From the NCBI GenBank assembly GCA_001799195.1, contig MGSU01000309.1, positions 19,032-44,730 of the forward strand: 25,699 bases of DNA. Reading direction: 5' to 3'. A program made the translations under genes and the position numbers. Under the pieces are notes generated by a model that did no database searches, had not been told where the DNA came from, and saw only the letters and a program-made list of their open reading frames with translations. Shown here one piece after another: positions 3,281-17,485 of this stretch. The DNA comes from Deltaproteobacteria bacterium RIFOXYA12_FULL_61_11. GTDB taxonomy: Bacteria > Bdellovibrionota_F > JAHFAK01 > YA12-FULL-61-11. How positions within the stretch are numbered: the first letter of the stretch is position 1; the number at the start of each line of letters is the position of its first letter.

Positions 3281-3430
3281 ATGAAACGGACCTATCAGCC
3301 GAGCCGGATCAAGAAGCGCCGGACCCATGGGTTCCTTGCCCGCATGAGCAGCCAGGGCGGGCGTAAGGTGTTGAGCCGCCGTCGCCGCAAAGGACGTAAG
3401 GTTCTGGTGCCGACAACGTACAAGAAGTAG
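3281..3430 (+). CDS. rpmH: Ribosomal protein L34 (49 aa)
   Basis: The product is the small basic protein L34 of the large ribosomal subunit. It begins [20 protein letters not shown], continues [19 protein letters not shown] and ends in a short LVPTTYKK extension. Nearly all conserved L34 positions are present, including the TYQPS start and the GGRKVL-RRRRKGR core. The 49-residue length is within the family range (44-50). The ribosome-binding site GAGGTGG ends about 6 nt upstream. It is the first gene of the rpmH-rnpA-yidD-yidC-khpB-mnmE block, often found near the chromosomal origin, although dnaA and dnaN are not visible here. Confidence 0.97.
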
Positions 3431-5665: not shown

Positions 5666-6649
5666 ATGAATCCCTACGACGACGCTGGAGAACCCAGCAT
5701 GGAATTCGAGGCCAAGACTCTCGAGGACGCGGTTCGCAAGGCCTCCGCCCACTATGGGGTGGACAAGGATCGACTCGAGGTCACGGTACTCGAGAACACC
5801 CGACGCATCTTCAACATCATGGGCGGCTCCAAGGTTAAGATCAAGGTTCGGCTCAAAGGCCAGTCCCAGCAGTCAGCGACCCCGGCTTCCGGAACCGGTG
5901 GGCGGATCGAGGAGGCCGAACCAGAGGACCTTCGGAACCTACCGGAGGAGGACGAGCCCGAAGAGTTGGGACCTTCTCAGGATCTGCACTCTCAGGCCTA
6001 TCGTTTTCCCGAGGATGATCTGCCAAGGCGTTCAGAGCGTCGTCCGTACCGGGATCCCCAGGAAGAGCGTCCCCACAGGCCTTTACCGGTCGAAGCCGAG
6101 GCGGGCCCCTGGGTACCCGCTACACCCCCCGGCAAGGCTGTCGAGGTGCTCCAGACCATCGCCCGCAATATTGATCCTCAGGCCCAGATTCGTTGGCGTG
6201 AAGCCGAGGAAACCACGGAATTGGAAATCATCACCGACCGGGGCGGCTTGTTCATAGGGAAGAACGGCGAGACGCTGGCCGCTCTGCAATTCGTCATCAA
6301 TAAGATCTTGATGCAAGCCGCCGGGGGGGAACTGCAGAAAAAGGTTCTCATCGATACGCAGGGGTATAGGGAGCGTCGGCGGAACAGCCTGATCGGTCTC
6401 GCGCTGAAAACCAAGCGCAAGGTCGTACGAGCGGGCAGGGAGTGCTTCCTCGACGTGACGAATTCCTACGAACGCTGGATCATCCACAATTATCTCCTCA
6501 ACGATGCCGAGGTTGGTACGCGCAGCGAAGGAGAAGGCAACGAACGCCGGTTGGTCATTTATCCCAAGCATCCGGGTGAGGGTGGAGCACAACCCGACTC
6601 ATCAGGGGAGGACTCCGAGGAACAGCAGGGGAAGGACGAGGTATGTTGA
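5666..6649 (+). CDS. khpB: KhpB/Jag RNA-binding protein (327 aa)
   Basis: This protein has three modules. A Jag-N domain lies at about residues 12-62 (MEFEAKTLEDAVRKASAHYG, then RRIFNIMGGSKVKIKVRL). A KH domain lies at about 175-220, with the RNA-binding GxxG loop GKNG at 198-201. An R3H domain lies at about 232-300 (YRERRRNSLIGLALKTKRK and later RRLVIYPKHPG). Between Jag-N and KH is an acidic, proline-rich linker of about 100 residues that is probably disordered. The C-terminus is an acidic tail. KhpB binds many RNAs, often with KhpA, and has been linked to cell-division and envelope control in Firmicutes. The start follows AGGAGG at 5654-5659. The stop overlaps the mnmE start by 7 nt. Confidence 0.93.
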   Translation: MNPYDDAGEPSMEFEAKTLEDAVRKASAHYGVDKDRLEVTVLENTRRIFNIMGGSKVKIKVRLKGQSQQSATPASGTGGRIEEAEPEDLRNLPEEDEPEELGPSQDLHSQAYRFPEDDLPRRSERRPYRDPQEERPHRPLPVEAEAGPWVPATPPGKAVEVLQTIARNIDPQAQIRWREAEETTELEIITDRGGLFIGKNGETLAALQFVINKILMQAAGGELQKKVLIDTQGYRERRRNSLIGLALKTKRKVVRAGRECFLDVTNSYERWIIHNYLLNDAEVGTRSEGEGNERRLVIYPKHPGEGGAQPDSSGEDSEEQQGKDEVC

Positions 6650-7988
6650 CCGATACCATCGTCGCGCTGGCGACTCCTCGAGGGCAAGGCGCTCTGGGGA
6701 TAGTCCGGTTGAGCGGCGCTGAGTCCCTACAACTTGCCGGGCAGGTCTTCAGGGGAAAAAAAAACTTCGCCCGCGTCGTCCCTCGCTCGGCGATGTGCTC
6801 CTGGCTCGAGGAGTGGTCGATACCGCGCTGATGACCTATTTCCCCGCTCCGGCAAGTCCTACCGGAGAGGAACTGATAGAATTCTCCCTACACGGTAATC
6901 CGGTGCTGCTCGACGCCCTGGTCGAGCGTCTGGTTGGGCTGGGGGCCCGCCATGCCCTCCCCGGCGAGTTCACCCGCAGGGCCTTGCAGAATGGCGCCAT
7001 GGACCTCGCTCAAGCCGAATGCGTCGCCGCCTTGATCGGGGCCCTGAGCCTCGAGGAGGCCGGTGCGATCAAGAGAGGACTCGACGGCGAACTCGGTCGG
7101 CGCATCGACAAGGTTATCGCTGCCGTGAGTGACCTCCTGGTCCGGGTCGAGCATGAACTCGACGTCCTCGAGACCGAGTTGTCCTGGGATCCTCGCACCT
7201 TGGGAACCGAACTCTCCTCGCTGCTCGAGGAGGTCCGAACCTTACGTGCCTGTCGAGATGCGCAGGTCTACCTACGGGGCGAACGTACCATCGTGCTCCT
7301 CGGCGCGGCGAACGTGGGGAAATCGACTCTGTTGAATGCCTTGCTCGGGTACGAGCGCGCGCTCGTCGACTCGCTTCCCGGAACCACCAGGGATTACCTC
7401 GAGGAACAGCTCTATATCGCCGGGCTGCCCGTGACCCTGTGCGACACCGCCGGACTCAGGTCCCAGCCTGAGGGTCTCGAGGCTCGGGGGATCGAAGCGA
7501 CCCGCGAGGTGGTCAACCGGGCAAGCCTGGTTCTGGCCGTGTTCGACGGCACCCGGGAGCCTGACCTTGTCGACGCGGAACTCCCGAGACTGGCAGTTGA
7601 GAAGGCGCTGGTGGTAGTGATCAATAAGTGCGATGCACCTGAGTACCGTTTCGAGCGGTATACCTCTCTTCTGCCGAGGGCCTTGCCGATCTCGGCCCGC
7701 GACGGCGAGGGAATACCCGAGCTACGTCGGCGTCTTGCCGAGGTCTTGACCTCGACGTCGAGCGCTCCCGAAGACGTTCTGTATATCGGCGAGCGGCAGG
7801 CCGTGGCGCTGGACGCTGCGGCCGAAGCCCTCGGTTCCGTGATCTTTGGTCTTGAGCATGGGGCTAGCCTCGATATGGTAGCCATGGACCTGCGCTGGAC
7901 TCTCGACCGTTTGGCCGATATCGCCAGAAAGGTCCCCGCCGAGGAGGTCCTCGAACGTATTTTTTCTCGTTTCTGTGTTGGGAAGTGA
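6643..7988 (+). CDS. mnmE: tRNA-modifying GTPase MnmE, split by a -1 frameshift at an A9 run
   Basis: MnmE, with MnmG, modifies the wobble uridine of certain tRNAs. The first frame (from 6643) encodes the conserved N-terminus DTIVALATPRGQGALGIVRL and stops at 6831 after 62 residues. The second frame continues from the A-run at 6756-6764 to 7988. Joining them there by one extra A, or a -1 slip, gives a 448-residue protein of normal family length, with smooth homology across the joint (FRGKKKLRPRRPSLGDVL). In the joined numbering all GTPase motifs are intact: G1 GAANVGKST 221-229, GTTRD 247-251, DTAG 268-271, NKCD 328-331, and the C-terminal FCVGK with its conserved Cys. The intact downstream part argues against simple decay. 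A sequencing error, transcriptional slippage or ribosomal frameshifting could all explain it. mnmG does not follow. Confidence 0.9.
6752..6764 (+). other. G4-A9 homopolymer run, site of the mnmE frameshift
   Basis: Four G (6752-6755) are followed by nine A (6756-6764). This is exactly where MnmE homology moves from one frame to the next. In the zero frame it reads AGG GGA AAA AAA AAC. With one extra A, or a -1 slip on AAA, it reads Arg-Gly-Lys-Lys-Lys-Leu in the downstream frame. Runs of nine or more A are known to promote RNA polymerase slippage in several bacteria. The purine-rich AGGGG just before it resembles a Shine-Dalgarno sequence, but it is too close to be the usual frameshift stimulator. 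Confidence 0.85.
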
Positions 7989-16693: not shown

Positions 16694-17485
16694 ATGTTCA
16701 CGTTGCCCTTCAGTTATCAGGATGTGCAGTTGTTCCTGCTGATCGCGGCCAGGGTCAGCTCCTTCTTGATGCTCTTCCCGGTGCTCGGCAGCCCGGAGAT
16801 TCCGAACCGCATACGGATCCTCCTTGCGCTGGCCTTTACCCTGGTGTTGTTCCAATTGCGCCGGGCAGGCTGGGTCGGGGTGTCTCAGGATCTCGGAGTT
16901 CTGGCCTATTTTGCTGGCCTCGAAGTGGTAAAAGGCTTGTTGCTCGGTCTCCTCGGGCGTTTCATCATGTCCGCGATCAACCTCGCGACACAGCTCTTCG
17001 GGCAGAACATGGGTCTGGCCATGGCCAACATGTTCGATCCCGTGTCGCAACAACAGGTCTCGGTTGTGCAACGATTGTATGTGCTGTTCTACGTCGTCAT
17101 CTTCCTCCAACTCGATATCCACCACGATGTGTTGCGCATCCTGGCCGTCTCCTTCGATACTATGCCGATAGGTCCGATGAGCCTGAGCGAGGAGACCTTT
17201 AACTTCGTCGTAGCCCAGGGAACCAAAATGTTCGTGGTCGCCCTGAAGATCAGCGCTCCGATCCTGGTGACCGTAACCCTGTCCAACTTGGTGCTCGGTA
17301 TCATCGTGCGCACCGCGCCGCAGATGAACATCTACTTCGCAGTCGGCATGTTCGGGAACATCGTCCTCGGTATGTTGATCCTGTTGTTCAGTCTGCCGTT
17401 CTACCTGCAACTCTTCCGTGACCTTGCGTGGGACATCAACCGCTCCGTGGAGCACTTGGTGCGGCTGCTCGGTGGGGTGGCCTGA
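16694..17485 (+). CDS. fliR: Flagellar export gate protein FliR (263 aa)
   Basis: FliR is the single-copy subunit that completes the FliP5-FliQ4-FliR1 gate. The family pattern is present: FLLIAARVSSFLMLFPVLGS, then PEIPNRIRILLALAFTLVLF, AGLEVVKGLLLGLLGRFIMS, FGQNMGLAMANMFDP, a hydrophobic VVIFLQLDIHHDVL segment, and the conserved RTAPQMNIYFAVGMF near the C-terminus. Length is typical. AAGGACGGG precedes the ATG. In most genomes flhB and flhA follow fliR; here the next gene is a giant lipoprotein, so they must lie elsewhere. Confidence 0.96.
   Translation: MFTLPFSYQDVQLFLLIAARVSSFLMLFPVLGSPEIPNRIRILLALAFTLVLFQLRRAGWVGVSQDLGVLAYFAGLEVVKGLLLGLLGRFIMSAINLATQLFGQNMGLAMANMFDPVSQQQVSVVQRLYVLFYVVIFLQLDIHHDVLRILAVSFDTMPIGPMSLSEETFNFVVAQGTKMFVVALKISAPILVTVTLSNLVLGIIVRTAPQMNIYFAVGMFGNIVLGMLILLFSLPFYLQLFRDLAWDINRSVEHLVRLLGGVA

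Follow-up and report, generated by a model that had tools for sequence, protein, structure and literature searches.

A one-base frame break at nine consecutive A's in the mnmE gene, otherwise intact, of a GC-rich uncultured bacterium: a candidate for rescue by slippage

Background

Runs of nine A slip in bacteria and this restores broken open reading frames (ORFs), and the genes with 9A or 9T that Baranov et al. (2005, PMC1088944) described as 'pseudo-pseudogenes' are broken at a run that is prone to slippage, their homologues are single ORFs, and slippage would restore the whole protein. The mnmE gene described here is like them in each of these respects, but it is a different gene, and its genome, of 4.6 Mb and 60% GC, belongs to a poorly sampled phylum. 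Poly(A) breaks are also found in the endosymbionts Buchnera and Blochmannia, where, as in mnmE, an otherwise intact core gene is interrupted by one indel within its poly(A) tract, and there they are rescued by polymerase slippage (reviewed in PMC3017870). However, the genomes of Buchnera and Blochmannia are AT-rich and hold more than 100 coding A runs of at least nine, whereas the genome with this mnmE has about five, and some of the endosymbiont breaks are conserved between species and have been seen in mRNA, whereas the mnmE break is known from the DNA of one genome.

Poly-A sites with a shift in the -1 direction, as in mnmE, are known from dnaX, both from the A9 of Thermus dnaX and from the A10 of the two-ORF dnaX genes. 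Seventeen two-ORF dnaX genes have been described, 9 of the 17 with exactly ten A's, and in these tau requires recoding (Antonov et al. 2013, PMC3711429), so that here, too, the longer product depends on the shift. In dnaX, however, both products are useful, whereas the 62-aa product of mnmE is without evident use and its break is without conservation in the genomes compared. The prfB gene, which codes for RF2, is like mnmE by hypothesis only, in that a translation-related protein could set the rate of its own early shift; the prfB shift is a +1 shift at CUU UGA that is strongly conserved, to which nothing seen at mnmE compares.

Results

The window, that is, the whole stretch of 25,699 nt that was analysed, belongs to the draft genome of an uncultured bacterium (4.64 Mb in 342 contigs, 87% complete, about 60% GC, with N gaps in the scaffolds). 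The gene order at the locus is yidC-jag-mnmE, and the 3' end of jag and the mnmE ATG overlap by 7 nt (Table 1). The 0 frame of mnmE (ORF1) codes for residues 1-38 of MnmE and then for 24 out-of-frame residues up to its TGA, and the -1 frame is open throughout from the base after the A9 run to the end of the gene and supplies about 407 MnmE residues. The initial annotation had divided the protein into 40 and 400 residues; the division stands, and the true N-terminal part is corrected to about 38-40 residues. Across the A9 junction the -1 product reads GKKKLRPRRPSLGDVL, just as it was first given, and the junction-spanning stretch in the joined MnmE is VFRGKKKLRPRRPSLGDVL. This run is the sole A9 or T9 in the window, where dinucleotide shuffles gave a mean of 0.02 expected, and it is also the sole run of at least six in the 109-nt zone within which a single shift restores the mnmE frame. 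A coding-potential HMM that was blind to the site and was run on sampled stretches also switched frame in mnmE.

Table 1. Coordinates of the features in the window
Feature	Start	End	Strand	Details
yidC	4036	5634	+	membrane insertase; neighbourhood gene
jag/eloR	5666	6649	+	RNA-binding, R3H; stop TGA 6647-6649
mnmE ORF1, 0 frame	6643	6831	+	ATG 6643, TGA 6829-6831; 62 aa
A9 run	6756	6764	+	0-frame codons GGA AAA AAA AAC
mnmE remainder, -1 frame	6765	7988	+	TrmE_N end, helical and G domains, C-terminal FCVGK
TGATG	6829	6833	+	ORF1 TGA (6829-6831) overlaps MnmE-frame ATG (6831-6833); read from sequence
Flagellar cluster	9978	16684		motA, motB-like pair, fliM, fliO, fliP
OmpA/MotB-type protein, first of tandem	10745	11467
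OmpA/MotB-type protein, second of tandem	11477	12283
Long ORF	17428	25698		at least 2757 aa; runs off window end

When the two parts were compared with family profiles, ORF1 matched positions 1-41 of TrmE_N and the downstream frame matched TrmE_N 54-116, MnmE_helical and MMR_HSR1. With NF003661 the scores were 24.1 bits for ORF1, 270.4 for the downstream part and 300.5 for the joined protein, the last falling short of the cut-off of 380, and with TIGR00450 they were 19, 255 and 280.6 bits, the last exceeding the cut-off of 252.6. The joined protein of 448 residues spans positions 3-448 of the 448 in NF003661, which bears out the earlier proposal of a full-length 448-aa product, as the profile is covered end to end. 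The profile matches change frame at the A9, where the junction had originally been placed, and because homology and profile coverage are continuous across the run, the observation of a frame break is correct. The junction falls in what we take to be, from the secondary structure of MnmE, a variable linker that leads from the first helix to the next strand. A phmmer alignment with PDB 3GEH covered residues 2-448 with just a two-residue gap beside the junction. Judged by its sequence, the joined product is a complete MnmE (TrmE) GTPase, with domains along its whole length and the terminal FCVGK.

The view that the gene is not decayed was upheld: the 1.2 kb downstream of A9 contain no second stop or shift, FCVGK is present, mnmE is single-copy in a genome-wide search of the draft, and mnmG, which codes for its partner, lies intact on a different contig (767 bits). 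Such a state would fit a gene that is still used or one that was broken very recently. Downstream of mnmE the window continues with a flagellar cluster and its tandem OmpA/MotB-type proteins, and then with a long ORF that has TIG/IPT, thrombospondin-3-like and CARDB-like matches and may code for a giant surface or adhesin-like protein.

When mnmE was compared in 58 other genomes, none of them close, it was a single open frame over the whole protein in most and was cut by contig ends or matched in part in a few, and a frame break at this site was found in 0/58. The one other genome compared from the same phylum has an intact mnmE. No closer relative came from an MnmE scan of wider genome contigs, and in a FliP scan the best segment had at most 64% identity. 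The idea that the break might be conserved in orthologues therefore gained no support, since the orthologues in these genomes were intact or uninformative, and over all 59 genomes the same ORF layout together with the slip site was seen in no non-identical homologue. With the break absent from the other genomes compared and with no stimulatory RNA structure found (see below), the mnmE site does not look programmed. Of the features that mark a pseudo-pseudogene, homologues that are a single ORF (most of the 58 genomes) and an A/T run of at least nine at the break are present at this locus.

The genome contains just 12 distinct A/T runs of at least nine in its 4.64 Mb, both strands included, and on its GC-rich contigs about five such runs lie inside genes. 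The A10 on contig C38 and the A9 on contig C76 are in frame, the A10 of dnaX and the A9 of mnmE are at frame breaks, and the A9 on contig C341, close to where two radical-SAM ORFs in tandem meet, is ambiguous. Another contig, C303 (stretch L056), carries a gyrB-like ORF within a stretch of 29% GC, against about 60% for the genome, and probably entered the bin as contamination.

The behaviour of homopolymers in the draft was examined with a purpose-built frame-tracking HMM that was trained on this genome and covered 99 stretches (1.6 Mb). The coding G/C runs of at least seven were in frame in all 167 cases, 15 of which are of at least nine, the 32 coding A/T runs of 7-8 were likewise all in frame, and of the coding A/T runs of at least nine 2 were broken and 3 were called in frame. 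The broken share of A/T runs of at least nine differs from that of the shorter A/T runs and the G/C runs with a Fisher p of 0.0005, or 0.02 without dnaX, but as the stretches were non-random and contigs with known A9 runs were chosen deliberately, the counts for A/T runs of at least nine are enriched. With about 199 in-frame coding homopolymers of at least seven and none broken, the draft is not homopolymer-error-prone in general, and a generic homopolymer error was set aside as an explanation, which weakens it for the A9 as well. An assembly homopolymer error, which the initial annotation had named as the main competitor, is thus weakened, while the A/T runs of at least nine are too few to exclude it. 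The HMM also lists further apparent breaks in the sample, away from homopolymers, some of which border N gaps. A minus-strand 'break' near window position 3291 was false, as it lies on the strand opposite an rpmH-like gene, and therefore the background list of breaks contains false positives. A codon-usage comparison of the frames flanking the runs left most runs 'unclear' and was too weak a test.

In dnaX (contig C26, stretch L062 17855-17864) the 0 frame stops directly after the A10, its product ending in ...VREKKKT, whereas the tail of tau is encoded in the -1 frame, so by its layout this gene reads as a further instance of the published two-ORF A10 type, in which tau would need recoding. 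The prfB gene (contig C263, stretch L286) has kept the classical +1 site CTT TGA C with a G-rich Shine-Dalgarno-like GGGGGTAT just before it. As the draft retains these two known recoding genes, slippage in mnmE is plausible. At the A9 of contig C341 (stretch L065, minus strand 17143-17151) the run stands in GAG GTA AAA AAA AAC shortly before the first radical-SAM ORF ends; the second radical-SAM ORF is then in the -1 frame, TTG is the only kind of start candidate near its beginning, and over the 48 nt after the run the frames are indistinguishable. This site may be a slip fusion, or the two ORFs may simply overlap, with the second starting at TTG.

According to the slip-site classes taken from PMC5009743 and PMC1088944, the mnmE A9 holds the in-phase -1 heptamers A_AAA_AAA and A_AAA_AAC, and its length suffices for slippage by RNA polymerase. 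In E. coli A_AAA_AAC is far weaker than A_AAA_AAG (PMC5009743). Poly-A is also less slippery there than poly-T, with insertion at A7 amounting to 0.39% (PMC6260861), so that the yield of MnmE may be low. A search for a 3' stimulatory structure at the mnmE site revealed no unusual folding (z = -0.01 and 0.38). Directly 5' of the A9 is CAGGGG, whose Shine-Dalgarno likeness is at the 14th percentile. The dnaX and mnmE runs have in common a TCAGGG(G) flank, which stands before 0/397 other coding A runs of at least five in the sample, but it was spotted post hoc and the genome has TCAGGG before an in-frame A7 as well, and for these reasons it is given little weight. As a specific signal the flank was rejected, CAGGGRA6 being present six times genome-wide and two of these in genes with an in-frame A6 or A7.

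The wobble modification mnm5/cmnm5 of tRNA-Lys(UUU) is made by MnmE. Pattern and tRNA scans of the draft did not find a tRNA-Lys(UUU) gene and found tRNA-Lys(CUU) alone, which says little in a draft that is 87% complete. Sliding-linked loss of frame on consecutive AAA codons was 25-fold lower with modified than with unmodified tRNA-Lys in a reconstituted E. coli system, and in that experiment every tRNA-Lys modification was removed, MnmE's among them (PMC9207662).

Discussion

The best explanation, to which we give a probability of about 0.48, is that mnmE carries a true or segregating one-base break at A9, is otherwise intact, and is leaky via slippage with its expression reduced. RNA polymerase realigning on the A9 would give some transcripts that gain one A or lose two, some ribosomes would slip -1 on the Lys codons of AAA AAA AAC, and either slip would lead to MnmE of 448 (or 447) residues; of the two, we infer that realignment of RNA polymerase would be the larger contributor. 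All this supposes that the DNA truly has nine A's, that slippage takes place at mnmE and that its yield is sufficient. The locus would then be a 'pseudo-pseudogene' and not a conserved programmed switch, and as far as its sequence goes it fits a new gene for a known phenomenon and a new member of the group of Baranov et al.

The frame break would need no slippage at all if the organism had ten A's, or a mixture in which ten dominates, and an intact mnmE of which the draft shows nine. Such a run-length artefact is unlikely but carries real weight: ten A's in frame would yield an ordinary MnmE, the draft is in 342 contigs with N gaps and is 87% complete, and when a core gene is broken in one genome only, sequencing error is the classical explanation (PMC3711429). 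Moreover, the sample has just two to three other coding A/T runs of at least nine in frame, so few that errors could affect tens of percent of such runs. However, three such runs were called in frame, and the 199 other coding homopolymers of at least seven, with the 15 G/C runs of at least nine among them, had 0 breaks. The slip could also be real and inactivating, mnmE having only lately become a pseudogene or segregating in the population as an A9/A10 on/off variant, with negligible MnmE in A9 cells. Poly-A runs are hotspots of replication slippage, mnmE is dispensable in some bacteria, and the other breaks that the HMM finds in the sample mean that some decay or misassembly is present, but the absence of a second lesion over 1.2 kb and the retention of mnmG speak for a gene in better standing, and as A9 messages always slip somewhat a clean null is unlikely, so we regard inactivation as improbable.

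A programmed, autoregulatory -1 frameshift would work in such a way that low MnmE leaves tRNA-Lys(UUU) undermodified, this increases sliding on AAA AAA AAC, and more MnmE is made. Since MnmE modifies tRNA-Lys and modification of this tRNA has a 25-fold effect on frame loss at AAA codons, feedback of this kind is conceivable, and both the in-phase heptamers and the flank shared with dnaX would be in keeping with it. We nevertheless consider it very unlikely, because the break is absent from the 58 other genomes, the 3' structure was not found, the flank is post hoc with an unexceptional Shine-Dalgarno match and recurs at an in-frame A7, A_AAA_AAC is the much weaker heptamer in E. coli (PMC5009743), and all tRNA-Lys modifications, not MnmE's alone, were stripped in the experiment concerned (PMC9207662). 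We give hardly any credence to a split gene in which ORF1 works together with a downstream chain reinitiated at TGATG or at GTG 6795. The TGATG overlap is in its favour, but neither chain would contain N-terminal-domain residues 39 to about 61 (fewer would be missing if GTG 6795 were used), and the ATG at 6831 is merely a residue within the folded domain; reinitiation there may possibly give a truncated MnmE.

Conclusions

If mnmE is indeed expressed by slippage across a true A9 break, a GC-rich bacterium would rely on poly(A) slippage to make one of its core tRNA-modifying enzymes, a reliance that is otherwise known mostly from AT-rich endosymbionts and mobile elements. The slippery codons are decoded by a tRNA-Lys that MnmE itself modifies, so that control by the enzyme of its own production is a concrete hypothesis, and such autoregulation, if true, would parallel, for tRNA modification, the feedback loop of RF2 (prfB). 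Rescue by slippage, if true, would also be a caution to annotators against labelling such genes by default as pseudogenes or as sequencing errors.
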